From contig NZ_JANKHH010000001.1 in the NCBI RefSeq assembly GCF_024626475.1, positions 456,281 through 520,280 of the forward strand: a stretch of 64,000 bases of DNA, in the 5' to 3' direction. The position numbers were made by a program, and so were the translations under genes. Origin of the DNA: Parerythrobacter lacustris (GTDB lineage Bacteria; Pseudomonadota; Alphaproteobacteria; Sphingomonadales; Sphingomonadaceae). Below are positions 33,331 through 63,146 of the stretch, piece by piece. Under the pieces are notes generated by a model. The model did not search any database, was not told the DNA's origin, and was given only the letters and a program-made list of their open reading frames with translations. Numbering within the stretch: position 1 is the stretch's first letter; the number at the start of each line of letters is the position of its first letter.

Positions 33331-35961
<2,631 letters not shown>

Positions 35962-43963: not shown

Positions 43964-44062
43964 GGCTGCCAACATGCGGGGTTGCCAAGGCGGCCCCGCT
44001 TCCGCCACAAGGCGCGGCAAGCACAGCATAATCCTGGGTCGCGCAATTCCGAGAGGACGGAT

Positions 44063-46123: not shown

Positions 46124-46838
46124 AAAAATTCGCAGTTCGCTGCTCATCGCGGGCGTTGCCACAGGGCTGGTGCTGGCTGGCGGCGCTCAGGCGGGTGTGG
46201 TGGTCAAATCGAGCGGGCCGTCCGCCGGCCAGTATCCGCCGGGCAAGAAGCTCGACGATGCCAGCTCGGTCACCCTCAAGCCCGGCGATACGCTGACCAT
46301 CCTCGCCGACGGCGGTACCCGTGTCATTTCCGGTCCGGGGACGCACCGCGTCGCTGCACGCGGAACCAGCCGCCGAACCACTATGGCCACCCTTACCCAG
46401 CAGCGTCCCAAGGAGCGGCGGATTCCCACGGCGACGCGCACTGGCGCTGCCTTGGGGACTGCCCCGGCTTCGAACCTGTGGCAGGTGGATGTCACCAAGT
46501 CGGGTGCTATGTGCTTGCCCGATCTTTCCGCGCTGACTTTCTTCCGGCCAGGCGGGGACCAGCCGTCGACCTACATGCTGACGGCTCCCGGAATGATCGA
46601 GCATATTCACGTCGCGTTTCCGGCCAATGAATCGCTTGTCGACATGGATTCGGATACGCCTACGGTGAAGGAAGGGGTCGACTATGTCCTGACCGGACCG
46701 GGAGGCGAATCCTCCGTCATCTCGTTCAAGACGCTGGCCGAGCCCGCCACGACGGGGGAGGCGCTGGGGCTGCAGTTGATGGAAAACGGGTGCGAATCGC
46801 AATTGGAGCTTCTCACCGCCAAGATGATGCCGCAATAG
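46104..46838 (+). CDS. Exported protein of unknown function, paired with the CHASE2 cyclase
   Basis: 244 residues from the ATG at 46104, which has GCGAGGG upstream and overlaps the cyclase gene. A signal peptide (SSLLIAGVATGLVLAGGAQA) ends near residue 28. The mature part begins with a beta-rich stretch (DASSVTLKPGDTLTILADGG, THRV) reminiscent of FecR-like or LysM-like exported proteins, then a basic Arg/Thr-rich linker and a C-terminal domain with two Cys (AMCLPDL and NGCESQL). I do not recognise a named family. Translation coupling suggests it may supply or modulate the periplasmic signal sensed by CHASE2. Confidence 0.75.
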   Translation: MPMFSGRKIRSSLLIAGVATGLVLAGGAQAGVVVKSSGPSAGQYPPGKKLDDASSVTLKPGDTLTILADGGTRVISGPGTHRVAARGTSRRTTMATLTQQRPKERRIPTATRTGAALGTAPASNLWQVDVTKSGAMCLPDLSALTFFRPGGDQPSTYMLTAPGMIEHIHVAFPANESLVDMDSDTPTVKEGVDYVLTGPGGESSVISFKTLAEPATTGEALGLQLMENGCESQLELLTAKMMPQ

Positions 46839-47110
46839 AACTTCGATTGGCCGAACCGGGTCGCACGGCCCTGCCGACACGCCACAAGGCGGCGCAGGAA
46901 CCAGGACTGCAGTTGATCCCGCAGAGGGTCCCGCATGGGCGCGGGGCTGCGGGATACCGGGAGGCAATGGGACGTGCGATACCGAGACCGCACCGCAGCC
47001 AGGTCGGGGCATGGAGCCGGCCGCTGCGCTGATTTAGCAGAATCACCGAATCCCCCCTTGCGGCCTCGCGCCGATTGCCTAGTCTGCGCGGCTGGGGGGT
47101 ATGTGTCGTG

Positions 47111-48499
47111 ATGCGGTTTGGGGGAAAAGCCTTCGTCCTAGGCGCTCTGCCATTGCTGGCAGGGCTGGCCTTGCTCGCCGGTGGGGGATCGAGCGCCGAC
47201 GCGCAAGCGAACGGGGCGCGGATCGAAGGCGTTGCCTCATGCGCGGGATCGACCTGCCACGGCCGCGCCGAGGGCAATGGCGACGCCGTCCGGCAAGACG
47301 AGATCGCCACCTGGCAGGAGCCATCCTCGGCCAGCGGGGCGCACAGCCGCGCCTATGCGGTGCTCTCCAGCCCGCGCGGCAGGCAGATCATTGCCAGCCT
47401 GACGAGTTCGGGCAACTACAAGGAATCGGACTGCCTCGGCTGCCATACGACCTACAAGCCCGAAGTCGCCAAGGGCGCGCGCTACCAGGAATCGGACGGG
47501 GTCGGCTGCGAGAGCTGCCACGGCCCGGCCTCGGGCTGGCTCGCCTCGCACTATGTGCTGAGCGACGGCGACAATTCGCGCGTCACACATGCCTCGAACG
47601 TCGCGCGCGGGATGACCGATCTCACCAAGCCGCGGGTGCGCGCCAATGTCTGCCTCGACTGCCACTACGGCAGCGAGAAGACCGGCCAGTTCGTGACCCA
47701 TGCGATGATGGCTGCAGGCCATCCGCGGGTGACTTTCGAGCTCGACCTGTTTTCCGCGCTCCAGCAGCATCATGATGAGGACGCCGACTACACCGGCAAG
47801 CGCATGAAGCCGGCGACCGACAGCGTGCGCCTCTGGGCAGTCGGTCAGGCCGAAGCCGTTGCGCGCTCGACCGAGCTGTTTGCCGGTCCGCGCGGAGCGA
47901 AGGGCGTCTTTCCGCAATATTATTTCTACGACTGCCACAGCTGCCACCGAACGATCACCGATGCCGAGCAGCGGCGGCTGACCTTCGAAACCAACCCGGG
48001 CCGCCCGATCGAGTTCGGGCAGGCCCCGTTCAACGACGAGAACATCATCATGCTGTCCTCGGTCGCGCGGGCGCTTGCCTCAGGCCAGGCCGCGTCGTTC
48101 GATTCGGCGAGCAAGGCGTTCCACGCCGCGATGGGCGAAGGGCGGGCGGAAGCGCAGGCGGCGGCGCTACGGCTCAACCGCGAAGCCAACGCCCTGGCCG
48201 GTGCGCTCGACCGGGATTTCGACGGCAACGATGCCTTCACGGTGATCCAGAAGATTTCCGACACCGCGACCGCGCCGCGCTTCACCGACTACACCGGTTC
48301 TTCGCAAGCGGTGATGGCGGTCGATACGCTGCTCAACGCGCTGGTGCGCGATGGCCGGATCACCACCGGTGCGGCGGCGAGCATCCGGGCGGATATCAAT
48401 GTCGCCTATGGCGCGGTGCGCAGCCCCGAGAGCTACAAGCCGGTCCAGTTCCGCGCCGCCCTCGCCCGGGCAACCGGCGCGATCGGAAGGCTGCGGTAG
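47111..48499 (+). CDS. Pentaheme cytochrome c, cytochrome c554-like
   Basis: Periplasmic multiheme cytochrome of 462 residues. After a signal peptide (LGALPLLAGLALLAGGGSSA) come five heme-attachment motifs: an atypical CX4CH (CAGSTCH) and four CXXCH (CLGCH, CESCH, CLDCH, CHSCH). Order and spacing resemble the cytochrome c554 family of multiheme electron carriers. The C-terminal 180 residues are helical and heme-free. The ATG at 47111 is preceded by GGGGGGTATG. The 272-base gap before it shows no clear promoter. First gene of a plus-strand cytochrome/outer-membrane operon; likely shuttles electrons in the periplasm. Its redox partner is inferred. Confidence 0.88.
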   Translation: MRFGGKAFVLGALPLLAGLALLAGGGSSADAQANGARIEGVASCAGSTCHGRAEGNGDAVRQDEIATWQEPSSASGAHSRAYAVLSSPRGRQIIASLTSSGNYKESDCLGCHTTYKPEVAKGARYQESDGVGCESCHGPASGWLASHYVLSDGDNSRVTHASNVARGMTDLTKPRVRANVCLDCHYGSEKTGQFVTHAMMAAGHPRVTFELDLFSALQQHHDEDADYTGKRMKPATDSVRLWAVGQAEAVARSTELFAGPRGAKGVFPQYYFYDCHSCHRTITDAEQRRLTFETNPGRPIEFGQAPFNDENIIMLSSVARALASGQAASFDSASKAFHAAMGEGRAEAQAAALRLNREANALAGALDRDFDGNDAFTVIQKISDTATAPRFTDYTGSSQAVMAVDTLLNALVRDGRITTGAAASIRADINVAYGAVRSPESYKPVQFRAALARATGAIGRLR

Positions 48500-48500
48500 C

Positions 48501-50480
48501 ATGCGGCGTTCGGGCAGGATCTGGTGCCTTTCGGCCTCGCTCGCTCTGGCCCTGTCGGGCTGTGGCGGAGGCGGCGGAAGCAACCCGAGCCCGATCGGCG
48601 GAACCCCGGCGCCGTCACCGACCCCGCCGCCCAGCGGGCGATTGTTCGCCGACCCCGCGCTCGAATCGCTGACCACGGGGGATGTGCAGCGCATCATTGC
48701 ACAAGCGGCGGGGGAGGCTCAGGCGCGGAACCTGCCATCGACCATCGCGGTGACCGACCGGGTGGGCAATGTGCTCGCGGTGTTCCGCATGAACGGCGCG
48801 CCGCAGACCACGCGGATCAGCACACGCCAGATCGGCGGGCTGGCGACCGCGGCCGAAACGGTCGGACTGCAAGGCACCGATGTTCCGGCATCCGCCGCCG
48901 CCATCGCCAAAGCTATAACCGGCGCCTATCTGTCGAGCGGCGGCAATGCCTTCTCCAGCCGCACCGCGAGCCAGATCGTGCAGGAGCATTTCCCGCCCGC
49001 GCCCAACACCGTCGGGCTGGAGAGCGGGCCGCTGTTCGGGGTGCAGTTCAGCCAGCTGCCCTGTTCCGACCTGTCGGAACGGTTCAATCCGGCGGGCGGC
49101 ACCGGTGCGCTGATCGGTCCCAAGCGCTCGCCACTCGGCCTGTCGGCCGATCCGGGTGGTTTTCCGCTGTACAAGAACGGCGTTGTCGTCGGCGGAATCG
49201 GTGTCGTGGGTGATGGCGACTACGGCTTCGACCCGAATATCCTCGACATCGAGGTCAATGCCGAAGAGGCGATCGCGCTGGCCGGCATCCAGGGCTTCGC
49301 ACCGCCACCGGAAATCCTCGCCGACCGCATCCCGGTCGATGGCACGACCCTGCGGTTCAGCGACATGACGGTGGCCGATCTCAGCCCGCTGCAAGCCAAC
49401 TTCGGCGCGATCAACGGTTCGGCCGGCACGCTCATTCCGGTGACGGCGTACACCGACGGGACGATCCGCCCCGGTACCGCCTATGGCACCGAAGCCTCCG
49501 GTGTGCGGCGCACCACCGCCGCCGAGTTCGCCCTGCCCGATGCCTATGTGCTGACCAACGGGGCGGGCACCGGGCGCTATCCGATCCGCGGCGGGACCGA
49601 CGCGGCCTTGGTCGGCCAGCCGCTGACCGCCGCCGAGGCACGCGCGATCCTCGAGGAAGCCTTCACCGTGCTGTCGCGCGCGCGGGCGCAAATCCGTCGG
49701 CCGCTCGACAGCCGGATGCAGGCGACCATCAGCTTGGTCGATTCGCAAGGCGCGATCCTCGGCATCGTGCGTTCGCCCGACGGGCCGATGTTCGGCACCG
49801 ACGTGTCGTTGCAGAAGGCGCGCACGGCGACGTTCTTTTCCAATTCGGTCGCTGCCGCGCAGATGAGCGCCTTCGCGCCGAGCGCGCCCTATGTGCAGCG
49901 CGTGCGGACCTTCCTGGGCGATGCCAACGCGCTGACGGGGAACTTCGCCTTTGCCGACCGTTCGGGCGGGAACCTCGCGCGACCTTATTTCCCCGATGGG
50001 GAAGTGGCGCAATTGCCCGGGCCGCTTTCGGTCGAACAGTCTTCGAAATTCAGTCCCTTTGCGGTCGGGCTCCAGTCGGACCTGATCGAAGACAATGTCG
50101 TCCAACACGTCGTCCATATCGTCACCAACGGCGGTGCGGCGGACACCCCGCGCCGCTGCACCGGCATCCCGCAGAACAACCGGCTCGCCAACGGCATCCA
50201 GATTTTCCCCGGCTCGGTACCGATCTACCGCGGCAACACGCTGGTCGGCGGCATCGGCGTGTCGGGCGACGGGATCGATCAGGACGATATGGTCAGTTTC
50301 CTCGGGGCGCATAACGGAGGCCTGCGGGTCGGCGGTGTCGGTAACGCGCCCAACGCTATCCGGGCGGACCGGATCGTGGTCCAGCTCGGCAACAACCGGC
50401 AGGTTCGCCTGCGTTATGTCAGCTGCCCCTTCGCGCCGTTCCTCGACACGGCGCAGCAGAATGTGTGCGAGGGGCTGTAG
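48501..50480 (+). CDS. Lipoprotein with two GlcG/HbpS-like domains
   Basis: 659-residue lipoprotein: signal peptide with lipobox LSGC ending at Cys21, then a Gly/Pro/Ser-rich linker. Two GlcG/HbpS-type domains follow. Domain 1 has VQRIIAQAAGEAQARNLPST, AVTDRVGNVLAVFRMNG and FPLYKNGVVVGGIGVVGDG. Domain 2, from about residue 375, has ATISLVDSQGAILGIVRSPD and VPIYRGNTLVGGIGVSGDG. HbpS proteins of this family bind heme, so a heme-handling or redox-sensing role beside the cytochromes is plausible. It starts one base after the cytochrome stop and is followed directly by the barrel gene. Function is inference. Confidence 0.82.
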   Translation: MRRSGRIWCLSASLALALSGCGGGGGSNPSPIGGTPAPSPTPPPSGRLFADPALESLTTGDVQRIIAQAAGEAQARNLPSTIAVTDRVGNVLAVFRMNGAPQTTRISTRQIGGLATAAETVGLQGTDVPASAAAIAKAITGAYLSSGGNAFSSRTASQIVQEHFPPAPNTVGLESGPLFGVQFSQLPCSDLSERFNPAGGTGALIGPKRSPLGLSADPGGFPLYKNGVVVGGIGVVGDGDYGFDPNILDIEVNAEEAIALAGIQGFAPPPEILADRIPVDGTTLRFSDMTVADLSPLQANFGAINGSAGTLIPVTAYTDGTIRPGTAYGTEASGVRRTTAAEFALPDAYVLTNGAGTGRYPIRGGTDAALVGQPLTAAEARAILEEAFTVLSRARAQIRRPLDSRMQATISLVDSQGAILGIVRSPDGPMFGTDVSLQKARTATFFSNSVAAAQMSAFAPSAPYVQRVRTFLGDANALTGNFAFADRSGGNLARPYFPDGEVAQLPGPLSVEQSSKFSPFAVGLQSDLIEDNVVQHVVHIVTNGGAADTPRRCTGIPQNNRLANGIQIFPGSVPIYRGNTLVGGIGVSGDGIDQDDMVSFLGAHNGGLRVGGVGNAPNAIRADRIVVQLGNNRQVRLRYVSCPFAPFLDTAQQNVCEGL

Positions 50481-52619
50481 ATGCCGTCGCCGCTGATCCT
50501 GCCCCTGATCCTGCACGCGGCGGCCCCGCTGCCGCAGCCGGTGCCGGAGGTGGATCGGGCAGCTTCCCCGTTCGATGCCGCATTCGGCGATTTCGCCTTT
50601 GCGCCCGGAGTGGTGACCGCTGCGCGCGCGCAGGCCCGGCCGGTCAGTTTTGCGGAGGCGTTTGCGCCGTTCAGCCAGGTGCGGCCGGTGGTCGATGCGG
50701 GATATCTCGGCGCGCTGTCGCAGCCCGAGCCCGAGCGGCAGCGACCGGGCGGCGGCGAGCCGGAAGAAGAGGTCCAGGCCGAACCCGCTCAGCCCGCATT
50801 CGAGGTCGAGCCCTCCGCCCCGCCGCCGGTCGATACGCAGAACGAGCTGGAGGATCGGCGCCGCCCAGGCTTCAACAGCCGGTTGCCCGACCGGATCGAC
50901 CAGACCAACGAAGGCGCGTTCCGCGCGCCTCCGCCCGAGGCCTTCATCGAGGCTGACGGCATTCCGATTCCCGATCGCTGGCGGTTGTTGCAAACGCTCT
51001 GTCCGCCCAAGGACCAGCGCAACAACCCCGATGCTTACGGCATTTTCACTTCGCTGAAGTACAATTGCACCGCGAAGACCGATCCCTACGGGCAGAATGT
51101 GCTCAAGGGCGACCGCCCGCTGCCGCCGGGCAAGCGGCCCGGGTTTCTCAAGGGCGACGACTGGTTCTTCATCGTCAATGCGATCAGCGATACGGTGTTC
51201 GAACCGCGCACCTTCCCGATCCCTGTCGGTGTCCAGACCACGCAGGACCCCGACCGGCTCGATGTGTTCGGCAACGATTTCAGCCCGGTGCTGTCGCAAA
51301 GCTTCATTTTCGGCGCGGCGCTGCTCAAGGGCAACACCGCCTACAAACCGCCGACCGTCGAATATCGTGTCACCTTCGCCTACAACCTCAACTACGTCGA
51401 TGTGCCCGAACGGCGCGTGCTGTTCGTCGAGCCGTCCAAGCCATCGCACCGGTTCGACCAGTTCCTCGGGGTGCAGGAGGCCTTCGTCGACTATCACATC
51501 GGGCGCTACGACAACGACCGGTACGACTTTATTTCGGTGCGCGCGGGCATCCAGCCGTTCCAGGCCGATTTCCGCGGCTTCCTGTTCAACGACAGCCAGC
51601 TCGGCATCCGGCTGTTCGGCAATCGCGACAACAACCGCTTCCAGTTCAACCTCGGCGCGTTCTGGCGGCTGGAGAAAGACACCAACAGCGGGCTCAACAA
51701 TGTAACCCGCATGCCGCGCGACGATTTCCTGTTCATCGCCAACGCCTATCGCCAGGATTTCCTGATTCCCGCGCTGACCAGCCAGGTGACGCTCGCCTAC
51801 AACCGCAACCGCGAGGCGGACGATATCGAGATCGACGACAACGGCTTCCCGGTCCGCCCGGCGCTGCTCGGCAGCCTGCGCGGGCGCGAATACGATGTGT
51901 TCTATCTCGGCTACAACGCCGACGGCCGGCTCGGCCGGATCAACGTCACCGCCAGCGCCTATGCCGCGCTGGGAGAGGACCGCAACAGCTTCTTCACCGA
52001 TCGCCCGGCGGATATCGAGGCGTTCTTTGCCGCTGCCGAGCTGAGCTACGACAAGGACTGGATGCGATTCCGCCTGTCGGGCCTCTATCAGAGCGGTGAC
52101 AGCGACCCGTATGACGACAAGGAAACCGGGTTCGACGCGGTGTTCGAGAACCCGGTCTTCGCCGGGGCGGATACGTCCTACTGGATCCGCCAGACGATCC
52201 CCTTCGCGGGCGGCGGGCGGGTGATCAGCGTCAACGGGCGCAACGGCATCCTCAACACGCTGCGCAGTTCCAAGGAACAGGGGCAGTCGAACTTCAACAA
52301 CCCCGGCCTGATCCTGCTCGGCGCCGGGGCCGATTTCGATCTCACCCCCGAATTCCGCATCTCGGCCAATGCCAATCACCTGTGGTTCGAGAACACCGCG
52401 ACGATGGAGGCACTGCGCAACGAGGGCACGATCCCGAAGGATATCGGCTGGGACCTGTCCGCCGCCGCGATCTGGCGCCCGCATGCGAACCAGAACATCG
52501 TATTCCGCCTCTCGGCCGCCACGCTCCTTTCGGGTGACGGCTTCCGCGACCTGTTCGACAACCTGGGCAACGACGACAAGTTCTACTCGGTGCTCGCCAA
52601 TGTGATCCTGACCTACTGA
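50481..52619 (+). CDS. Large outer-membrane beta-barrel protein
   Basis: 712 residues. The N terminus is a short hydrophobic stretch (LILPLILHAAA) that may be a weak signal peptide, followed by a Pro/Glu-rich linker (about residues 75-120). From about residue 225 onward, alternating aromatic/hydrophobic strands run to a terminal Tyr (VLANVILTY), as in outer-membrane barrels inserted by Bam. Stretches such as YRVTFAYNLNYVDVPERRVL and FQFNLGAFWRLEKDTN fit. It has no TonB plug. It is immediately followed, with one base overlap, by a ten-heme cytochrome, a pairing like the porin-cytochrome conduits MtrAB or PioAB, though sequence similarity cannot be tested here. Confidence 0.8.
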   Translation: MPSPLILPLILHAAAPLPQPVPEVDRAASPFDAAFGDFAFAPGVVTAARAQARPVSFAEAFAPFSQVRPVVDAGYLGALSQPEPERQRPGGGEPEEEVQAEPAQPAFEVEPSAPPPVDTQNELEDRRRPGFNSRLPDRIDQTNEGAFRAPPPEAFIEADGIPIPDRWRLLQTLCPPKDQRNNPDAYGIFTSLKYNCTAKTDPYGQNVLKGDRPLPPGKRPGFLKGDDWFFIVNAISDTVFEPRTFPIPVGVQTTQDPDRLDVFGNDFSPVLSQSFIFGAALLKGNTAYKPPTVEYRVTFAYNLNYVDVPERRVLFVEPSKPSHRFDQFLGVQEAFVDYHIGRYDNDRYDFISVRAGIQPFQADFRGFLFNDSQLGIRLFGNRDNNRFQFNLGAFWRLEKDTNSGLNNVTRMPRDDFLFIANAYRQDFLIPALTSQVTLAYNRNREADDIEIDDNGFPVRPALLGSLRGREYDVFYLGYNADGRLGRINVTASAYAALGEDRNSFFTDRPADIEAFFAAAELSYDKDWMRFRLSGLYQSGDSDPYDDKETGFDAVFENPVFAGADTSYWIRQTIPFAGGGRVISVNGRNGILNTLRSSKEQGQSNFNNPGLILLGAGADFDLTPEFRISANANHLWFENTATMEALRNEGTIPKDIGWDLSAAAIWRPHANQNIVFRLSAATLLSGDGFRDLFDNLGNDDKFYSVLANVILTY

Positions 52620-55600
52620 TGCCCTTCCTGCGCCAAATGCTCTTCTGGATCGCCGCCGCCACGCTGGCCGGGGCGATGATCTTCGCCACCCAGGGCGAGG
52701 CCGCCGAAAAGGTGCGCAAGGTCGAGCGCGACTACAGCAAGATCTGGAAAGAACCCGCCCCGGTCCAGCAGCCGGGCAAGACCGAAGGCGAGCAACTGGC
52801 GGCGGTCGCGCGCAAATCCGACGGCTGCCTCAGCTGCCACGAAGGCAGCGATGTCCCGTCGATGCACGAAACCCCGGCGGTGCAGCTCGGCTGTGTCGAT
52901 TGCCACGGCGGCGATGCGTCGGTCACCGGCAATCCCAAGCTGCCTTATGACAGCGACCACAACTTCAAGCAGATGGAACTGGCGCACGTCCTTCCCGAAT
53001 ATCCGGACGACTGGCACGGCACTTCGGCCAACCCCAAGCGTAGCTACACCCTGCTCAACCGCGAAGCGCCCGAATTCATCCGGTTCGTGAACCCGAGCGA
53101 CTACCGCGTGGTGCGCGAGGCCTGCGGGGCCTGCCACATGCCGATCATCGAAGCGGGCGAACGTTCGATCATGGCGACCGGGGCGATGCTGTGGGGCGGT
53201 GCGGCTTACAACAACGGAATTCTGCCGTTCAAGAACTACATCGTGGGCGAAGCTTTCACGAGGGATGGGCAGCCGGCCAGGCTGCTCTCGCCCGGTGCCC
53301 CCCCGGGAACCCTGACCGAGAACCAGAAGGCGCGCGGCGCTCTGGAAGCGCTCTATCCGCTGCCGACCTGGCAGGTGGTTCCACCGGGCGACGTGTTCCG
53401 CGTGTTCGAGCGGGGCGGGCGGACGATCAACCCGGCCTTCCCCGAAATCGGCCTGCCCAACCCGACCGGCAGCATCCAGCGGCTGGAGGAACCGGGGCGG
53501 CCCGATCTCAAGCAGTCGAACCGCGGCATGGGCACCGGACTGCGCGTCGCGATCCCGGTGCTCAACATCCACAAGACCCGGCTCAACGATCCCTTCATGT
53601 GGTACATGGGCACCAACGACCAGCCGGGCGATTATCGCCATTCGGGCTGCGCCGCGTGCCACGTGGTCTATGCCAACGACCGCGAACCGCGCCACTCGCT
53701 GACCTATGCCCAATACGGGCGCGACGGCCAGTCGATCACGCAGGACCCGACGATCTGCAACAAGACCGAACCCAAGCATGATGATGGTGGTCATGGCGAG
53801 AAGGCCGGCCACGGCGATGCCGATCATGGCGGCAGCGATCACGCGACGGAGCCATCCGGCCACGGCGCGCTGAGGCAACCTGCGGGGGGCAAGTGCGCCT
53901 CGCCCGAAGCGATCGCCGAGGCGGCAGAGAAGGCCGACGACGATCCGGCGGGCAAGATTGCGCACCAGCGCGAAAAGGGCCATCCGCTCAAGCACGTGTT
54001 CACCCGGTCGATCCCGACCGCGCAGTGCATGAACTGCCACATGCACCAGCCGAACATCTTCCTCAATTCCTACCTCGGCTACACCATGTGGGACTACGAA
54101 TCCGACGCGCCCTTCATGTGGCCGAAGGAACAGAAATACCCCACAGCGGAGGAAGTGCGCGCGGTGACCGACCGCAATCCCGAAGGCGCAAGCCCCAAGG
54201 GCAATTGGGCGGACATCGATTTCCTGCGCAATGTCTATGACCTCAATCCGCAGCTGAAACACACCCAGTTCGCCGATTATCACGGCCACGGGTGGAACTT
54301 CCGCGCGATCTTCAAGCGCGATCGTGAGGGCAATCTGCTCGACAAGGATGACAACATCATCCCCCACGACGATCCGGAGAAATGGCGCAAGGAAGGCGAA
54401 GGCAAGTTCGTCGACGTGAAGACCAATCCGGGCAAGACGGTCCACATGATGGACATCCATGCCGAGAAGGGGATGCAATGCGCCGACTGCCACTTCGCGC
54501 AGGACAGCCACGGCAACGGGATGATATATGGCGAGGTCGCCAACGCGATCGAGATCGGGTGCAAGGACTGCCACGGCACGGCGGACGCCTATCCGACGCT
54601 GCGCACCAGCGGCCCGGCAGCTCCTCCCAAGGGGCACGATCTCTCGCTGTTGCGCAATCCGGACGGACAGCGGCGGTTCGAATGGGTGTGGGATGACAAC
54701 GGCCAGCGTGCGCTGGTGCAGCGCTCGATCATCGATCCGAAGCTGAGCTGGACGGTCAGCCTGACCAAGGACAGCGCCGATCCCGACAGTCCCTATTTCA
54801 ACGCCAAGTCCGCCCGCGCCAAGCTGGTCAGCGCAGACAGCGCAGGGGCCGAGGTGATGGAGTTCGGGCCCGATGTCCCGACCGACAAGCGCGCCCACCG
54901 CGACGAGAATATGGCGTGTTTCACCTGCCACCTGTCATGGACGACATCGTGCGGCGGCTGCCACCTGCCGATCGAGGCCAACTGGAAGACCAAGGACCAC
55001 CATTACGAGAACGGTTCCACCCGCAATTTCGCGACCTACAACCCGCAGGTCGCGCGCGACGAGATGTTCCAGCTCGGCAAGCACCAGACGACCAAGGGCA
55101 ACCAGATCGCGCCGGTCCGCTCGACCTCGGCGCTGGTGCTGAGCTCGACCAACATCAATCGCGAGCGGATCTATGTCCAGCAGCCGCCGATCTCATCGAG
55201 CGGCTACAGCTCGCAGGCTTTCGCGCCACATTTCCCGCATACGGTGCGCAAGACCGAGACCAAGAAATGCTCGGACTGCCATATCTCCGATCAGGGCGAC
55301 AACAATGCGATCATGGCGCAGACGCTGCTGCTCGGGACCAATTTCGTCAATTTCGTCGGGCTCAACGCGTGGACCGGCGAGGAACGCGGGTTCGAAGCGA
55401 TCCGGGTGACTGAGTGGGACGAACCGCAAGCGGTGCTCGGCTCCTACCTGCACAAATACGCCTATCCCGATTACTACAACCAGTTTGTCGATGAAAACGA
55501 CCGCGAGCTGAAGAACTGGGTGCGCGGCAAGACGTTCGACGAGAGCCTCTCGGGCGAAACCCAGGCCTTCGAGGAGTTCGCCAATGTCCACGAGGGGACG

Positions 55601-56836
55601 AGCGACCGGGTCGGTTGCCTGCAACTGCGCGGCGAATACATGTTCGTGGCCGAGGGCAAGGGCGGCTTCCGGGTCTACGATGTCGCCTCGATCGCCAACA
55701 AGGGCGTGAGCGAACGGATCATCACCGCGCCGTTCAGCTCGATGGGGCATGACACCCACGTGAAGAGCGCCAATGCAACCTGCATGGCGCTCGCCACCAA
55801 CCAGCCGATCAACCCGCTGCGCAACACCAAGGCGATGCAGGAAGCCAACCAGGAGCAGCCCTTCCTGCCGATCTACAACTACGCGGTGATCAGCGATAGC
55901 GAGGAGGGCATGATCCTCGTCAACGTCAACACCATGGCCGACGGCGAATTCCGCAACAACAAGCTGGAGCGGTTCGAATTCGCAAATGGCCAGACGGCGT
56001 GGAACGAGAACGGTGTGCTGACCGGGGCTCGCCATGTGCAGCTGGCCGGCGAAGTGGCCTATTTCTCCACCGACCGCGGTCTGGTGATGGTCGACCTCAA
56101 GGATCCGGCCAATCCGGTGGCCAAGCTGGTCGATCTGCCCGGGGCGAAGTCTTCGGCGATCCAGTTCCGCTATCTGTGGGTGGCCGATGGCAGCGGCCTC
56201 AAGCTGTTCGATGTCACCGACCTGCGCAACCCCGTGCCGGTGCCGCGGGGGAACATCGCCATCCCGGGCGCGCAGCGGCTCTACCTCGCGCGGACCTATG
56301 CCTATGTCGCCGCGAAATCGAACGGGCTGGTGATCGTTGACATGACCCGGCCCGAAGCCCCTGCGATCTATCGCAAGGTCCAGCCCGACGGGCAGCCCTA
56401 CGACAGCACGCTCGGCGGCAGGTTGATCGATACCGAGGACGTGATCGTCGCCTCGACCAATGCGTCGCAGTTCGCCTATGTTGCGGACGGGCGCGGCGGG
56501 ATGAAGGTGCTGCAACTGACCAGCCCGGACAGCCAGCCCAATTTCTACGGCTTCAGCCCGGCGCCGATGCCAGAGCTCATCGCCTGGGCGCGCACCAAGT
56601 CGCCCGCGATCGCGATGAGCAAGGGCCTCGACCGTGACCGTGCGGTGGACGAGACCGGCGGCCAGATGGCAGTGTTCGGCCGGCTGGGTTCACGCCCGTT
56701 CAACCGCGAGGAAATGGAAAAGCTGTTCAAGCGCGGCGAGGCGTGGACCGTCTCCGACGAGGTCGACATGCGCGGCTGGGTGGGCAAGGGCGGCAAATAC
56801 CTGCGCGCCGATGCGAAGGGTTCGGTGGAGTATTGA
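52619..56836 (+). CDS. Decaheme cytochrome c with C-terminal LVIVD-type beta-propeller
   Basis: 1405 residues. A signal peptide (LFWIAAATLAGAMIFATQG, cleavage near residue 28) is followed by ten CXXCH motifs at about residues 69, 91, 169, 343, 469, 619, 647, 766, 777 and 883. A histidine-rich insert (about residues 386-416) may bind metal. From about residue 985 the sequence turns into beta-propeller repeats of the LVIVD kind (GGFRVYDVASIA, GLVMVDLKDPANPVAKL, GLKLFDVTDLRNPV, GLVIVDMTRPEAPAIY). The propeller could dock to the barrel or face outside. Last gene of the plus operon. I do not know a characterised protein with this combination; role in electron transfer is inferred from the hemes. 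Confidence 0.88.
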   Translation: MPFLRQMLFWIAAATLAGAMIFATQGEAAEKVRKVERDYSKIWKEPAPVQQPGKTEGEQLAAVARKSDGCLSCHEGSDVPSMHETPAVQLGCVDCHGGDASVTGNPKLPYDSDHNFKQMELAHVLPEYPDDWHGTSANPKRSYTLLNREAPEFIRFVNPSDYRVVREACGACHMPIIEAGERSIMATGAMLWGGAAYNNGILPFKNYIVGEAFTRDGQPARLLSPGAPPGTLTENQKARGALEALYPLPTWQVVPPGDVFRVFERGGRTINPAFPEIGLPNPTGSIQRLEEPGRPDLKQSNRGMGTGLRVAIPVLNIHKTRLNDPFMWYMGTNDQPGDYRHSGCAACHVVYANDREPRHSLTYAQYGRDGQSITQDPTICNKTEPKHDDGGHGEKAGHGDADHGGSDHATEPSGHGALRQPAGGKCASPEAIAEAAEKADDDPAGKIAHQREKGHPLKHVFTRSIPTAQCMNCHMHQPNIFLNSYLGYTMWDYESDAPFMWPKEQKYPTAEEVRAVTDRNPEGASPKGNWADIDFLRNVYDLNPQLKHTQFADYHGHGWNFRAIFKRDREGNLLDKDDNIIPHDDPEKWRKEGEGKFVDVKTNPGKTVHMMDIHAEKGMQCADCHFAQDSHGNGMIYGEVANAIEIGCKDCHGTADAYPTLRTSGPAAPPKGHDLSLLRNPDGQRRFEWVWDDNGQRALVQRSIIDPKLSWTVSLTKDSADPDSPYFNAKSARAKLVSADSAGAEVMEFGPDVPTDKRAHRDENMACFTCHLSWTTSCGGCHLPIEANWKTKDHHYENGSTRNFATYNPQVARDEMFQLGKHQTTKGNQIAPVRSTSALVLSSTNINRERIYVQQPPISSSGYSSQAFAPHFPHTVRKTETKKCSDCHISDQGDNNAIMAQTLLLGTNFVNFVGLNAWTGEERGFEAIRVTEWDEPQAVLGSYLHKYAYPDYYNQFVDENDRELKNWVRGKTFDESLSGETQAFEEFANVHEGTSDRVGCLQLRGEYMFVAEGKGGFRVYDVASIANKGVSERIITAPFSSMGHDTHVKSANATCMALATNQPINPLRNTKAMQEANQEQPFLPIYNYAVISDSEEGMILVNVNTMADGEFRNNKLERFEFANGQTAWNENGVLTGARHVQLAGEVAYFSTDRGLVMVDLKDPANPVAKLVDLPGAKSSAIQFRYLWVADGSGLKLFDVTDLRNPVPVPRGNIAIPGAQRLYLARTYAYVAAKSNGLVIVDMTRPEAPAIYRKVQPDGQPYDSTLGGRLIDTEDVIVASTNASQFAYVADGRGGMKVLQLTSPDSQPNFYGFSPAPMPELIAWARTKSPAIAMSKGLDRDRAVDETGGQMAVFGRLGSRPFNREEMEKLFKRGEAWTVSDEVDMRGWVGKGGKYLRADAKGSVEY

Positions 56837-57061: not shown

Positions 57062-57910
57062 TCACTGCCGTTCGCGGAACATGTCCTTCATCATCGGCTT
57101 GAGGTGTTCGCCGTAGAACGCCAGCACATCCCAGTTGTTGGTCTTCTCGTAGTGGCTGACCAGCGATTGCCCGTCCCACCTATGCAGCGCGTAGGTCGCC
57201 GGTTCGGTGGTGATAAGGTCGCGGTTGTCGGCGCGGTTGGGGTCGACCGGGCGCAGGTCGAGCGAGACCAGCGGCGCGACCGACGGCGTAACCCCCAGCG
57301 GCACGCCGTGGAACGTCGTCATGATCGGGCGGTGCAAATGGCCGCAGTGGATCGCCAGGATCTGGTCATGCCCGGCAATCGCCTCGGCGAAGTTGGCGAT
57401 CCACTCCTCGTCCGGCGCGGGGTCCATCCAGTCGACCCCGGATACGACCGGCGGATGGTGCATGAAGATCAGAGTCGGCATGCCCGCGTTCGCCTCGAGC
57501 TGGCTGCGCAGCCAGTCGCGCCGCGCGTGGCAGAACGCCCCGCCGTGCCGCCCTACCTCCAGCGTATCGAGCATGATGAGCAGCAGCCCGTCCTGCTGAT
57601 GGGTGTAATGGATGAATCCGCCCTCGGTCGGGGTGTCGGGGAAAGCATGGAGCAGGCCTTCGCGGCTGTCGTGATTGCCGACCATCGGCAGGATCGGACA
57701 GGTCACCCGTTCGAGCAGCGCTGCGGTCTTCTCGAAGCTGTCCAGATCGCCATGGTCGGTCAGGTCGCCTGACAGCACCAGCAGGTCGATCGGGTTCGGC
57801 TGGGCAAGCAGGCGGTCGAGCGTCTTGCGAAAGCGGATGCGGTTGAGTTCCTCCGGCTTCGCATCCGGATCGAAACCGATATGGATATCGGTCATCTGCG
57901 CTACCAGCAT
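57062..57910 (-). CDS. Calcineurin-like metallophosphoesterase, CpdA/Icc-like
   Basis: 282-residue dinuclear-metal phosphoesterase with the full motif set: QMTDIHIG, VLSGDLTDHGD, VGNHDSR, FMHHPPV and HCGHLHRP. Size and motif spacing fit class III cyclic-nucleotide phosphodiesterases (CpdA). The ATG has AGGGGG upstream and lies 19 bases after the FHA-cytochrome gene, so it is the fourth gene of the operon that also encodes a protein with two cyclic-nucleotide-binding domains. Hydrolysis of cAMP is therefore a reasonable but unproven role. Confidence 0.85.
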   Translation of the reverse strand: MLVAQMTDIHIGFDPDAKPEELNRIRFRKTLDRLLAQPNPIDLLVLSGDLTDHGDLDSFEKTAALLERVTCPILPMVGNHDSREGLLHAFPDTPTEGGFIHYTHQQDGLLLIMLDTLEVGRHGGAFCHARRDWLRSQLEANAGMPTLIFMHHPPVVSGVDWMDPAPDEEWIANFAEAIAGHDQILAIHCGHLHRPIMTTFHGVPLGVTPSVAPLVSLDLRPVDPNRADNRDLITTEPATYALHRWDGQSLVSHYEKTNNWDVLAFYGEHLKPMMKDMFRERQ

Positions 57911-57929: not shown

Positions 57930-59729
57930 CTAACCGGTTTTCCGGGTGATCATCGCGACCTGCTTGTCCCTAGCATCCTTCCGGCGTTCGGGAACCCCCC
58001 CGGGTTTGGGGTGGTAGGAATGGCACATGGCGCAGCTCGAAGGAACCGGGGCCTGTCGCGCCTTTTCGCCCAGATGGCAGTCGCGGCATTCGGCGATCTT
58101 GGGCATCAGCAGGTCTTCGGACGTTTTCGACACATCCGCCGCGTGGCAGCTGATGCAGGTTTCCTCGCCCTGCCGCTGGCCGCCCTCGATCTTCTCGAAC
58201 GCGGCATCGCCATGCGATTTGTGGTCGAACCAACTATGCTTGAGGAAACTCTGGTTGAGATAGACCGGAACCACATCGGCACGCCCGCCCCGCGTGGTCG
58301 GGATATGGCATTCGCCGCACACGCCCTTGGGGCTCAGCGCCTGGTTGATGCCGATATAGTTGCGCGAAGGGCGGCCGAAGTCCTGGTAGAAGCGCTGTCC
58401 CTGCGCATAGTCGCCCGGTCGCTGCCTGCCGGTGGTGATCGGGCGGCGCGGTGCGCGGTCCATCGCGGCGAGATCGGCGCGCATCTGGTCGACGTCGCCA
58501 TGGCGCAGGGTGCGGAAAGTGTCGCCGACCTTGTCGTAGACCAGGCTGTGGCAGGCCTCGCAGGCTTCCTCCATCTCGACCGGCTTGAAGCCATAACGGT
58601 CGGCGGTGGGCTCGTGGCAATCCTTGCATTCGAGCGCCGGGCCATAGTCGCGCTTCGAGCCGATATTGCCCGCCATCCGCGCCACCCCGCCGGTCTTGCG
58701 CAGGTGCAGTTCGTGCGGGAATTTGAGCCCGTTCTGTTCGACGATCGGCTTGTCGAGCGAAAGCCGCGTCGTCTTCTTGCTGCCGAGCTCGCCATAGAAG
58801 ACCGCGCTCAGCTGCGGGTGCGCGGTGCCGAAATCGGCCGCGTTGGCCAGTTGCGTATCCTTCAGGCGGGTGTCCATCCCGTCATGGCATTCGGCGCAGA
58901 ATTTCTGCGGCGTCGGTTCCATCCGCCCCGCGCCCTCGTGCTCGGTGTGGCAGGTGGTGCAATTTCCGGGTCCTTCCTTGCCGAAAGTCTCGGCCACCGC
59001 CCACAGAAACTGGTCACCGCGCGACATCGGGCCGCGGCTGGTCAGCTGGCGATCGATCTTGGCGTGGTCGTCGATCTTCTCGTGGCAGGTGAGGCAGGTC
59101 TCGTCGCGTACCGAGACGAAGGCATCGACGTGGCACGCCTCGCAATTATCCTCCAGCCCGTGGTGCTTGACGCTGAGGTCGCCGGTGCTCCAGCTTGCGT
59201 CCATGATCGTCTGGCCGGGCTTCTTGTAGTCGGGTTCGACCCGTTCGCGGGTCAGGTTGGTGTAGATCGGCACCGCGAGGAAGGCGAGGAGCACCGCGAT
59301 CAGACCGGCCCACGCCATCGCGCGCTTGCTCGGCAGCGCGGAGGCGAGTTCGAAGCCCTTGGCCGCATCGGTTGCGGGCTTGTCTTCCTTCTGGGTGATG
59401 ACGATGGTCACCGGCCCGTCGCCGTCCTGCGTCACGGCGAGCCGGTAGCTGGCAAAGCCGAGCTCGACCCCTTCCTGCGGCTTGAAGGTCGCCGAGGTCG
59501 TGGTCCGCCCGTCGACCGTGAAGCCGAGCGTCCCGACCGCCTCTGCCGTGAGCTGCCCGCCGGTCGCCGGATCGATCCGGGCATGTTGCTGCTCAACCGC
59601 GAGGTCGGGCAGGTGGATGTCGTTCTCCGCCGCGCGGCCGATGGTCAGGCTGTCCTGCGCCAGTTCGCGGTCGCGCACGATCTCGCGCCCGGTTGCGGTG
59701 AAGTCGATGGTGCGGATCAGGAACGCCAT
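57930..59729 (-). CDS. FHA-domain / membrane-anchored decaheme cytochrome c fusion
   Basis: 599 residues from the ATG at 59729, which has GAGAGG upstream. Residues 20-100 form an FHA domain (LTIGRAAENDIHLPD with Gly31-Arg32, Asn36-Asp37, then His49). The usual Ser and Arg before that His are replaced (VEQQHARI), so phosphothreonine binding may be altered. One membrane helix follows (about residues 138-157), then a periplasmic region with ten CXXCH motifs: CEACH, CLTCH, CTTCH, CAECH, CKDCH, CEACH, CGECH, CISCH, CRDCH and CAMCH. The FHA domain should face the cytoplasm and the hemes the periplasm. It lies 10 bases after the cytochrome b-like gene. I know of no characterised FHA-cytochrome fusion. 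Confidence 0.9.
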   Translation of the reverse strand: MAFLIRTIDFTATGREIVRDRELAQDSLTIGRAAENDIHLPDLAVEQQHARIDPATGGQLTAEAVGTLGFTVDGRTTTSATFKPQEGVELGFASYRLAVTQDGDGPVTIVITQKEDKPATDAAKGFELASALPSKRAMAWAGLIAVLLAFLAVPIYTNLTRERVEPDYKKPGQTIMDASWSTGDLSVKHHGLEDNCEACHVDAFVSVRDETCLTCHEKIDDHAKIDRQLTSRGPMSRGDQFLWAVAETFGKEGPGNCTTCHTEHEGAGRMEPTPQKFCAECHDGMDTRLKDTQLANAADFGTAHPQLSAVFYGELGSKKTTRLSLDKPIVEQNGLKFPHELHLRKTGGVARMAGNIGSKRDYGPALECKDCHEPTADRYGFKPVEMEEACEACHSLVYDKVGDTFRTLRHGDVDQMRADLAAMDRAPRRPITTGRQRPGDYAQGQRFYQDFGRPSRNYIGINQALSPKGVCGECHIPTTRGGRADVVPVYLNQSFLKHSWFDHKSHGDAAFEKIEGGQRQGEETCISCHAADVSKTSEDLLMPKIAECRDCHLGEKARQAPVPSSCAMCHSYHPKPGGVPERRKDARDKQVAMITRKTG

Positions 59730-59739
59730 GGCCCGCCTC

Positions 59740-60606
59740 TCACCAGTAATAGAACACGCTGACGACATGCGCGGTGAGCGCGGCGATCAGCAGTATGGTT
59801 GCGGGGATGTGGATGAACAGCCAGACCTCCAGCAGCGCCTTGTAGCGCATGTGGCGGCGGATCTGGTCGAGCTGTGCCTGCCGCCGCGCGAGCAGCGAGC
59901 GGACCTTGTCCGCCGCTTCGTCGCCGCCGGTGCCGTCGAAGGCGCGCAAGGCCTTGCGGGTGGCGCAGCGGGGGTATTTGCCGGTCAGGCGGGCGAGGAA
60001 TCCGGCCTTGAACACATCCTGGTCGAGCGCGGCGATGACGACATCGGCCAGATGCCGGTCGAGCGGCTGCGCGGCCGTTTCGAGCTGGCGGTCGAGCGCG
60101 TCGAGCCCGTCGACCATCTGCTCGCGCGTCATCTCGCGCCGGTTGTTCGACAGCGAGCGGGGCAGCACCGAATAGACCACGATCCCGTAGATGCCCGACA
60201 ATATCACCAGCATCATCAGCGCCCAGGCCAGCGTGTGCACGTTCCAGCCGAGCTGGAAGCCGGTGTGCCAGGTGCCGATCACGATCAGCGCCAGCCCGAG
60301 ATAGACATGCGCGCTGGTCCAGCCCTTGAGGCTGAAATACTTCTCGCTCATCTTGCGCTTGCGCACGCCGAGCAGCGAGAGCCACAGGATCAGCAGCAGC
60401 CCGATGGTGCCGAGCGTATAGCCGTACCAGGTGCCGCCGTTGTGGCGCGGTTCGACATCGACCAGGAAATAGCTGACTACCACCGTCAGCATCAGCACCG
60501 TCGCGATCTTGAGCCAGCGGAAACCCCGGTGCGCGAGGAAGCTCTCGTGGTCGGTGTCGCGGCGGCGATCGTGGAACGCGAAGTTGGCTTTGGGCAGGCT
60601 GGCCAT
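59740..60606 (-). CDS. Membrane cytochrome b-like protein
   Basis: 288 residues with about five membrane helices: near residues 31-50, 70-90, 105-125, 130-150 and the last 25 residues. Histidines placed for b-heme ligation lie in SAHVYLGLALIVIGTWHTG, NVHTLAWALMM, EVWLFIHIPATI and TAHVVSVFYYW. A cytoplasmic loop rich in Arg and Asp (about residues 155-250) separates the helix groups. The start overlaps the stop of the flavoprotein gene by one base, and the FHA-cytochrome follows 10 bases later. It is the natural inner-membrane link between the Fe-S flavoprotein and the periplasmic hemes. Heme type is inferred. Confidence 0.8.
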   Translation of the reverse strand: MASLPKANFAFHDRRRDTDHESFLAHRGFRWLKIATVLMLTVVVSYFLVDVEPRHNGGTWYGYTLGTIGLLLILWLSLLGVRKRKMSEKYFSLKGWTSAHVYLGLALIVIGTWHTGFQLGWNVHTLAWALMMLVILSGIYGIVVYSVLPRSLSNNRREMTREQMVDGLDALDRQLETAAQPLDRHLADVVIAALDQDVFKAGFLARLTGKYPRCATRKALRAFDGTGGDEAADKVRSLLARRQAQLDQIRRHMRYKALLEVWLFIHIPATILLIAALTAHVVSVFYYW

Positions 60607-63146
60607 CAGTCGGCGTCCTCCTGCACGAGCTTGGTGAAGGTGAGGAATTTCTCCGGCGCGACGCGGATCGCGGCACCCGTGGGGCAGGCGCGTACACAAG
60701 CCGGCCCGCCTTCGATGCCCGAACACATATCGCATTTGATCGCCAGCTTGGCCTGCTCGACGCCCGCCTCCTCGGCCTTCTTCTTGCGCCATTTGTAGGG
60801 CGCTTCACCCGGCCCGGGGCCGCGCCCGAACAGCAGCCAGCTGAGCAGCGAGGGCTTGGGCGGGGGCTTCGCATCGAGCCGGATCACCCCATAGGGGCAG
60901 TTGCGCTGGCAGTTGCCGCAGCCGATGCATTTCTCGTCGATGAAGACCTCGCCGTCGGCCCCGCGCTTGATCGCGTTGGGCGGACAGTCGGCCATGCAGT
61001 GCGGGTGCTCGCAGTGGCGGCAGGAGGTCGGCACGTGGAGGTGGGCGTAGGTCGTCCCGGCTTCGCGATCGAGTCGGCTCAGCCCCTCGTGGCTGTCGGC
61101 GCAGGCCTTCTCGCAATTGTCGCAGCCGACGCACAGCGTCTCGTCGATCAGCAGCACGTCGGTCGCTTCGCCGATGCCGTTGTCGATCAGGAACTGCGCG
61201 GTCTTGGAATAGAGGTCCACCGCGCCGCCGAAGCTGTGCTTCTGGCTTTCGATGAAGCTGTTGACCTCGCGCCGCGATTTCATGTCGCGCCGCGCGCGTT
61301 CGAGCAGCTTGGGATGCTTGTCGAGCACCTGCTTGAACGCATCGCCGTTGATCTTGATCACTTCGGACTTGATCGCTGCCTTGACCGTGGCGGTGCGCTT
61401 GCCGCCGTCGAGCAGCGCCATTTCGCCGACATAGGACCCGGCGGGGAGGTAGGACAGGAACACCGGCTTGCCGCCGATATCCTTCTCGACGATCATCGAG
61501 CCGACGCGGACGACATAGATGTCGTTGCCCTCGTCGCCTTCCTTCAGGATTGCCTCCCCGGCCGGAACGCGGACGATTTCGGAGGTGTCCACCACCTCGC
61601 GGATATCGTCCGACTTGAGGCCCGAGCCGAACATCTGGAGAAGCTGGCGCTCGGTCGAGATGCGTTCGATTGCCTTCTTCGCCGTCGGCACCTGCGACTG
61701 CAGCTTGAGCGCGGCGAGGCGCGAAATCTCGACTACGATGGTGTCTTCCGCCGCACGGATCGTCGCGCCGCGGCGGCGGCCAGAGATTAGCCCGACTTCG
61801 CCGAAAATCGATCCGCATTCGATCGGGATGGTGATCGACGGGTCTTCCGGATTGACCTCGACCGCGACCGAGCCGCTGGCGATGCCGAACAGCGAGTTGC
61901 CCGGCGCGTTGCGCTCGAAGATCACCTCGCCCTTGCGGAAGAACTTTGCTTCGGATTCGAGCATGAACTCGCGCATCTGCAGCGGGTTCATGCCGTTGAG
62001 GATCGAGACGTTCGCGCGCAGGAATTCGAGCCAGTCCTCGGTGCTGCGGCCCGCCGGCAGGTCCTTGAACTTGGCGACCATGATCGGTTCGTCGGCCGGC
62101 TTCAGCTCGGTGTTGCCGTTGATGAACTCGATAACGTCGTAGCCCTGGTTCATGCAGTGCTTGATCAGCGGATAGCCCGCCAACGCACCGATCACGAAGA
62201 TGCCCGGGGTGGTCGATTCGAACACCGGCGAGAGCTTTGGGAAGGCGTTGCGATCCTCGCTGGCGAATTCGATCCCGCATTCCTCGACGAACATGCGCGG
62301 CGGGGCGGAGCCGATGCGGGCGATGATCCGGTCGCAGGGGATGCGGATCTCGCCGTCGCGGGTGGTCAGGGTGATGAAGCCGGGTTCGATTTCCTTGGTT
62401 TCGCTCTCCAGCCGGATCATGAGCTTGCCGGAATCGTGATCGGCCTGAAGCGCCTTGACGTTGGCATCCTTGGCGGTGGGAAAATCGGTGCTGCGGTTGA
62501 GGATCGACACGGTGTTGCGCTGCGCCGGGTCTTCGGCGAGGCCGCGCGCATTTTCGATCCCAGCGTCACCGGTACCGACGATCACGATATGCTCGTCGAC
62601 ATACTCGGTCGGATCGTCGAGCTGGTACTGCACATGCGGCAGGTCCGCGCCGGGGCAGCGCATCCGGTTGGGATTACCCTGCGTGCCGATGGCGAGGACG
62701 ACATTCTCGGCCATCACCTTCTCACCATTGGTCAGCTCGATCTCATAGGGCGGCTGGTGGCGCTGGATTTCCTTGGTCGTCTTGCTGCCGTCGCGCCCGC
62801 GCATCACGATGGTGTGGACGCTGCCGGGGATCGCGGGGCCGGTGCCCCTGATCGCCTTGGCTTCGGCATGGTATTTGACGTTGACCTTGTATCCGGCGGT
62901 CTGCTCGTCCCACTTGCCGAGGATCACCTCGCGCTTGCCCGCGTCGAAATCGCAGTCCGACCGCAGCACCAGATTGCTGGGCGTCGCCATGACGTGCTTG
63001 CCCTTCTGGTACTTGTAGATCGTGTCCGAGAGGTGGTCGGTCTTCTCGAGCAGCACGTGGCTCAGGCCGAGCGCAGCCGCCCGGGCAGCGGCGCTGAGGC
63101 CGGCCGGTCCCGATCCGATAATGGCTACGCGATACGTCTCCGGCAT
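60606..63146 (-). CDS. Flavoprotein fused to two cyclic-nucleotide-binding domains and a four-cluster ferredoxin
   Basis: 846-residue cytoplasmic fusion. Residues 1-350 are a thioredoxin-reductase-like FAD/NAD(P)H oxidoreductase with GSGPAGLSAA near residue 11 and a second Rossmann motif VGTGDAGIENA, but no redox CXXC. Two cNMP-binding domains (about residues 385-505 and 510-640) follow, with phosphate-cassette motifs FGEVGLISGRRRGATI and VGEMALLDGGKRTATV. The C-terminal 180 residues carry four 4Fe-4S Cys sets: CVGCDNCEKAC, CRHCEHPHCMADC, CIGCGNCQRNC and CDMCSGIEGGPACVRAC, like the DmsB/NrfC electron-transfer subunits. First gene of the minus operon. It probably passes electrons from NAD(P)H to the membrane cytochrome b under cAMP or cGMP control; that path is inference. 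Confidence 0.9.
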   Translation of the reverse strand: MPETYRVAIIGSGPAGLSAAARAAALGLSHVLLEKTDHLSDTIYKYQKGKHVMATPSNLVLRSDCDFDAGKREVILGKWDEQTAGYKVNVKYHAEAKAIRGTGPAIPGSVHTIVMRGRDGSKTTKEIQRHQPPYEIELTNGEKVMAENVVLAIGTQGNPNRMRCPGADLPHVQYQLDDPTEYVDEHIVIVGTGDAGIENARGLAEDPAQRNTVSILNRSTDFPTAKDANVKALQADHDSGKLMIRLESETKEIEPGFITLTTRDGEIRIPCDRIIARIGSAPPRMFVEECGIEFASEDRNAFPKLSPVFESTTPGIFVIGALAGYPLIKHCMNQGYDVIEFINGNTELKPADEPIMVAKFKDLPAGRSTEDWLEFLRANVSILNGMNPLQMREFMLESEAKFFRKGEVIFERNAPGNSLFGIASGSVAVEVNPEDPSITIPIECGSIFGEVGLISGRRRGATIRAAEDTIVVEISRLAALKLQSQVPTAKKAIERISTERQLLQMFGSGLKSDDIREVVDTSEIVRVPAGEAILKEGDEGNDIYVVRVGSMIVEKDIGGKPVFLSYLPAGSYVGEMALLDGGKRTATVKAAIKSEVIKINGDAFKQVLDKHPKLLERARRDMKSRREVNSFIESQKHSFGGAVDLYSKTAQFLIDNGIGEATDVLLIDETLCVGCDNCEKACADSHEGLSRLDREAGTTYAHLHVPTSCRHCEHPHCMADCPPNAIKRGADGEVFIDEKCIGCGNCQRNCPYGVIRLDAKPPPKPSLLSWLLFGRGPGPGEAPYKWRKKKAEEAGVEQAKLAIKCDMCSGIEGGPACVRACPTGAAIRVAPEKFLTFTKLVQEDAD

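Follow-up and report, generated by a model that had tools for sequence, protein, structure and literature searches.

A predicted trans-envelope electron conduit centered on an FHA-domain decaheme cytochrome in Parerythrobacter lacustris

Most of what is known about extracellular electron transfer comes from organisms that reduce or oxidise metals. In Shewanella, the decaheme cytochrome MtrA is not known to have an FHA domain or a membrane anchor, and it sits in the barrel of MtrB. Another system, PCC4, is a predicted porin-cytochrome system (He et al. 2017, PMC5566968), which is described as consisting of a porin, cytochromes with 4, 5 and 10 heme-binding sites, a membrane protein and a pfam13247 Fe-S protein; the paper's main text does not mention FHA. 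In a pangenome of the Gallionellaceae, a "Forkhead-associated protein" with ten hemes (cluster 403, 27/87 genomes) is listed under "Other" as a table line, without context or function (PMC10734462). This line was the only hit of our literature search for FHA or forkhead domains with multiheme cytochromes, a search that had most subscription papers outside its reach. FHA-like domains are also present in ring proteins of type III secretion systems (T3SS), where mutants of PrgH in the phosphothreonine-like residues of the FHA domain were unaffected in secretion, and deletion of the domain led to immature assemblies (PMC3635987).

Here we analyzed a stretch of 64,000 nucleotides from P. lacustris (the window), which encodes an FHA domain fused to a decaheme cytochrome (FHA-decaheme). 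We propose, with a probability of roughly two in three, that this protein, anchored in the inner membrane, forms the periplasmic link of a trans-envelope electron conduit and that its FHA domain serves as a phospho-blind dock. This model is built on the observed domain anatomy, conservation, gene linkage and co-occurrence.

The FHA-decaheme and its degenerate binding site

The protein and its N-terminal domain are encoded as follows.

57930..59729, minus strand: FHA-TM-decaheme cytochrome, 599 aa; FHA domain 1-110, helix ~135-160, ten CXXCH motifs at 196-570
59400..59729, minus strand: FHA domain, residues 1-110; loop E46-Q47-Q48-H49, invariant G31-R32

The open reading frame starts with MAFLIRT and contains a single hydrophobic helix (137-155 from sequence, 135-160 in the AlphaFold model). 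The ten CXXCH motifs account for all 20 cysteines of the protein, while shuffled versions of the sequence contained 0.022 such motifs on average and 2 at most. Ten additional histidines outside the motifs (H189, 222, 264, 304, 339, 342, 410, 503, 506 and 573) are conserved in 42-44 of 44 aligned homologues. Since this provides one further histidine per heme, the protein probably carries ten bis-His, six-coordinate c-type hemes that would serve electron transfer and not catalysis. Judged from its sequence, the protein thus has the CXXCH motifs, distal ligands and export expected of a multiheme c-type cytochrome, and CcmF is encoded in the same genome (Ccm present). The FHA-helix-decaheme architecture was kept in all 44 homologues, which come from Sphingomonadales as well as from further classes of Pseudomonadota; the proteins of loci L077 and L079 have only nine CXXCH motifs because their tenth site is CX4CH. 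No homologues were found in the IMG/VR search and none in the PHROGs search.

Since the attachment of c-type hemes is a periplasmic process and the protein has a single helix, we infer that the FHA domain is cytoplasmic. In line with this, the helix is preceded in the 44-homologue alignment by Lys or Arg at position 135 (most members) and by an Arg136 that never varies. A periplasmic N terminus, which would have contradicted the preliminary description of this locus, was not indicated.

The fold of the N-terminal domain was recognized by several approaches. The Pfam FHA model matched residues 29-79 above its cut-off (25.0 bits vs 20.7), and 23 of 26 family members matched it at E<=0.01. A family profile made from these 26 members found the FHA domains of GarA (1.7e-8) and OdhI (2.8e-8) in the PDB. 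In the AlphaFold model, residues 1-110 have a pLDDT mostly above 90, and the PDB matches listed for them are FHA domains, including OdhI (4.2e-6), with VIA Z ~10 and an rmsd of 2.3-2.9 over ~90 residues; the decaheme part was modelled with low confidence, and the structural matches are confined to residues 1-105. The preliminary description had seen an FHA fold tied by a single helix to ten c-type heme motifs and had suggested both the profile search and the comparison of residues 1-110 with FHA templates; Pfam, profile, model and the CXXCH count all bear out this anatomy.

The binding site of the domain is degenerate. The sequence V-S-R-R-H-A of GarA aligns with V-E-Q-Q-H-A in the loop of the window protein, confirming the earlier observation of Glu-Gln-Gln in place of Ser-Arg-Arg. 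The loop Ser is found in three of the 44 homologues (L029, L030, L077) and the next Arg in none of them, whereas Gly-Arg is present in 44/44, His49 in 33/44, Asn in 21/44 and Asn or Asp at position 73 in 38/44. The canonical phosphothreonine-binding set (Gly-Arg, Ser-Arg, His, Asn) is thus not found in this family, and every member retains an FHA domain with the invariant Arg yet without Ser-Arg. By its sequence, the domain appears to be an FHA member by fold and not a canonical phosphothreonine reader. Because this degeneracy extends to the entire family, a recent loss of Ser-Arg in this strain was rejected. The earlier suggestion that phosphothreonine binding had been lost was therefore right about the residues missing from the site, but they are absent family-wide rather than lost here. 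With Arg32 invariant and His49 and Asn/Asp73 mostly conserved, the pocket may still accommodate a phosphate, a carboxylate or an acidic group on a partner.

The same residues (Arg32, His49, Asn/Asp73) and the intact fold would also agree with a working phosphopeptide reader that has an unusual loop and couples protein phosphorylation to the conduit, and Pkinase genes are indeed present in 10 of the 21 carriers tested (absent in 11). However, the genome of P. lacustris (100% complete) contains no Pkinase-family (Hanks Ser/Thr) kinase at E<=1e-5 and no second FHA domain, and the loop Ser is missing even in the kinase-rich carriers outside the class, G424 (38 kinases; L073) and G626 (8 kinases; L076). 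Since the family lacks Ser-Arg and this genome lacks both a Hanks kinase and another FHA domain, phosphothreonine reading or phosphorylation signalling through the domain is unlikely; the earlier proposal that this locus links Ser/Thr phosphorylation with electron flow found no support, and a reader with an unusual loop is a very improbable reading.

Another function of the domain could be to drive the self-assembly of rings or oligomers without holding a cytoplasmic subunit. The Pfam model of the T3SS FHA-like domain, Yop-YscD_cpl, outscored FHA (30.2 vs 25 bits) on residues 15-98, although it remained just below its own cut-off of 33.2 bits, and 24 of the 26 members matched it; furthermore, T3SS ring proteins share the layout of a cytoplasmic FHA domain, one helix and a periplasmic part. 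We nevertheless regard self-assembly as unlikely, because the protein has no periplasmic ring-building domain and its sequence gives no sign of oligomers. What fits best as a proposed role is phospho-independent docking or assembly: the FHA domain would tie the soluble cytoplasmic subunit described below, or else a second copy or some other subunit, to the membrane part, much like the FHA-like cytoplasmic domain of T3SS ring proteins. This agrees with the assembly tether that the preliminary description had put forward as its alternative.

The core module and the putative electron path

The genes on the same strand around the FHA-decaheme gene are the following.

60606..63146, minus strand: cytoplasmic subunit, a pyridine-nucleotide/FAD oxidoreductase with two cNMP-binding domains and 16 conserved Cys (four [4Fe-4S])
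59740..60606, minus strand: inner-membrane di-heme-b protein, 288 aa, five TM helices, two WX3HX13H motifs and SGIYG
57062..57910, minus strand: metallophosphoesterase, downstream gene, retained mainly in Sphingomonadales

The genes for the FAD/cNMP/FeS subunit, the five-helix b-heme protein and the FHA-decaheme are adjacent and in this order in nearly all loci. Neither this operon, nor the outer-membrane half, nor the link to predicted porin-cytochrome systems figured in the preliminary description. The motifs of the b-heme protein (W96-X3-H100-X13-H114, SGIYG at 137-141 and W262-X3-H266-X13-H280) are highly conserved, with His, Trp and Gly present in 43/43 and Ser in 42/43 sequences. In two genomes outside the class, a single polypeptide comprises both the FAD/cNMP/FeS subunit and the b-heme protein (L077:4844-8203 and L079:3046-6420), so the two appear to work as one complex.

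For this module we infer an electron path with its direction, a partner for the FHA domain and gating by cyclic nucleotides. Electrons from NAD(P)H would enter the cytoplasmic subunit at FAD and its four [4Fe-4S] clusters, pass to the two b hemes of the membrane protein and from there to the ten bis-His c hemes of the FHA-decaheme. A c554-type cytochrome would then deliver them to an outer-membrane porin and a second decaheme cytochrome with LVIVD repeats, and on to an external acceptor. The two cyclic-nucleotide domains of the cytoplasmic subunit would probably gate the conduit.

Electron flow through the conduit could also go inward. Electron uptake by metal or cathode oxidation, with external electrons reaching quinone or NAD(P)+, is compatible with the same anatomy, and it would suit both the prediction of PCC4 for Fe(II) oxidisers in the published description (PMC5566968) and the decaheme "Forkhead-associated protein" of Gallionellaceae iron oxidisers (PMC10734462). 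With a cytoplasmic NAD(P)H/FAD/FeS subunit, however, outward is the downhill direction. Furthermore, many carriers are Sphingomonadales that to our knowledge are not metal oxidisers, and we consider uptake somewhat unlikely compared with the outward path.

A gene for a CHASE2 and adenylate/guanylate cyclase protein (43982-46123, plus strand) lies near this module with its two cNMP-binding domains. Gating by this cyclase was considered and rejected: the only similar genes close to the module (27-29% identity) belong to L078 and L093, two loci of a single genome, G525, and with the neighbourhood conserved nowhere else the link between cyclase and module is weak. Between the cyclase and c554 genes lies an uncharacterised ORF of 258 aa (46062-46838, plus strand) with no NCBIfam match. 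Elsewhere in the window, a methionine synthase of 876 aa (33331-35961, plus strand) starts with the pterin-binding domain; as the homocysteine domain is missing from this ORF, the enzyme is probably split over two genes. The whole module is also carried by a megaplasmid, pMSHV of Sphingobium herbicidovorans (L084), and the FHA-decaheme was found in 12 Sphingobium plasmid records, one of which is typed as conjugative.

Two outer-membrane halves on one core

The candidate outer-membrane half in the window is encoded on the strand opposite to the core.

47108..48499, plus strand: c554-type cytochrome with four CXXCH and one CX4CH
48501..50480, plus strand: HbpS-like lipoprotein, lipobox LSGC
50481..52619, plus strand: outer-membrane beta-barrel, ~18 strands, C terminus ...ILTY
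52619..56836, plus strand: secreted decaheme cytochrome with LVIVD repeats (LVIVD-decaheme), 1405 aa, partner by co-occurrence

In the majority of distant relatives, the genes for HbpS, porin and LVIVD-decaheme adjoin the core. The model of the porin is a barrel, with AlgE as the closest match (2.7e-16). The MtrB barrel has 26 strands; with ~18 strands in its model, the window porin would be narrower and may not sheath a cytochrome. The LVIVD-decaheme is weakly related to the ExtM model (a cytochrome of a selenite/tellurite operon), which it matched with 63 bits at a cut-off of 800.

The two decahemes co-occur across genomes. Among 398 genomes of the phylum, 15 encode the FHA-decaheme, and the LVIVD-decaheme occurs in 11, without exception among these 15 (Fisher p 1.6e-18), and in the family of the window's genome both decahemes are present in 8 genomes and neither in 11 (p 1.3e-5), with counts and p values uncorrected for kinship. 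The two halves co-occur even where they are unlinked in the genome (G608, G653, G481). No match to the LVIVD-decaheme was found in the carriers G289, G314, G423 and G424, the contig of G424 stopping after the porin gene. The c554 gene is present in 20 of 22 FHA-decaheme carriers and in none of 7 non-carriers.

A second type of outer-membrane half was found in loci L041 and L051, where genes for a c554-type cytochrome (four CXXCH), a five-CXXCH cytochrome and a different porin follow or face the same core. The five-heme protein and the porin of L041 have no match in the P. lacustris genome, and this porin has no similarity to that of the window; BLASTP of the L041-type porin and five-heme protein against the window porin and LVIVD-decaheme detected no similarity. 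The L041-type porin and five-heme protein co-occur in the same four carriers (G060, G105, G160 and G258), of which G160 has one FHA-decaheme and both outer-membrane halves. With two dissimilar outer halves on the same core, both present in G160, the core resembles a hub whose outer parts can be exchanged. We tentatively consider it possible that these loci represent a family of cyclic-nucleotide-gated conduits from NAD(P)H to the surface, in which one hub held by a phospho-blind FHA domain is combined with two unrelated, exchangeable outer-membrane halves.

Comparison with known systems

The SctD proteins (PrgH, MxiG, YscD) share with the FHA-decaheme a cytoplasmic FHA-like domain without the conserved phosphothreonine site, one helix and a periplasmic part, and their FHA-like domain has a role in assembly. 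They differ in having periplasmic ring-building domains and a T3SS context, whereas the periplasmic part of the FHA-decaheme is a decaheme cytochrome. With MtrA of the Shewanella MtrCAB system, the common feature is a decaheme link in a trans-envelope conduit; the family profile weakly matched chain 6r2q_A (8.7e-5), which we take to be MtrA, though the molecule name in the record differs. The Gallionellaceae cluster 403 protein and the window protein have an FHA annotation and ten heme motifs in common, a likeness by annotation.

The greatest overlap is with PCC4. The window shares with it a five-helix inner-membrane protein with SGXXG and two WX3HX13H motifs, a pfam13247 Fe-S gene upstream of the membrane protein as in Subgroup II (Fer4_11, 2.3e-11, in 60606-63146), and ten-heme and four-CXXCH cytochromes. 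It differs in having neither a five-heme cytochrome, which leaves the 4/5/10 set of PCC4 incomplete, nor a PCC4-type porin, as judged from the L041 proteins; in place of the PCC4 outer half it has an unrelated porin, the HbpS-like lipoprotein and the LVIVD-decaheme. L041 and L051 have every part described for PCC4: cytochromes with 4, 5 and 10 CXXCH, a porin, the membrane protein and the Fe-S protein. Compared with PCC4 by its published description, the FHA-decaheme is most likely its ten-heme protein.

These loci encode a complete predicted path from NAD(P)H to the outer membrane, with nucleotide-binding domains, in Sphingomonadales and other Pseudomonadota, in some cases on megaplasmids, and the decaheme "Forkhead-associated protein" of iron oxidisers, listed so far without a role, gains a likely place in a machine. 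To summarize, the predicted conduit class (PCC4) and the tabulated FHA-heme combination were already known, and what this analysis adds is the proposed position of the FHA-decaheme as an inner-membrane hub, the family-wide degeneracy of the FHA site and the two unrelated outer-membrane halves on one core.
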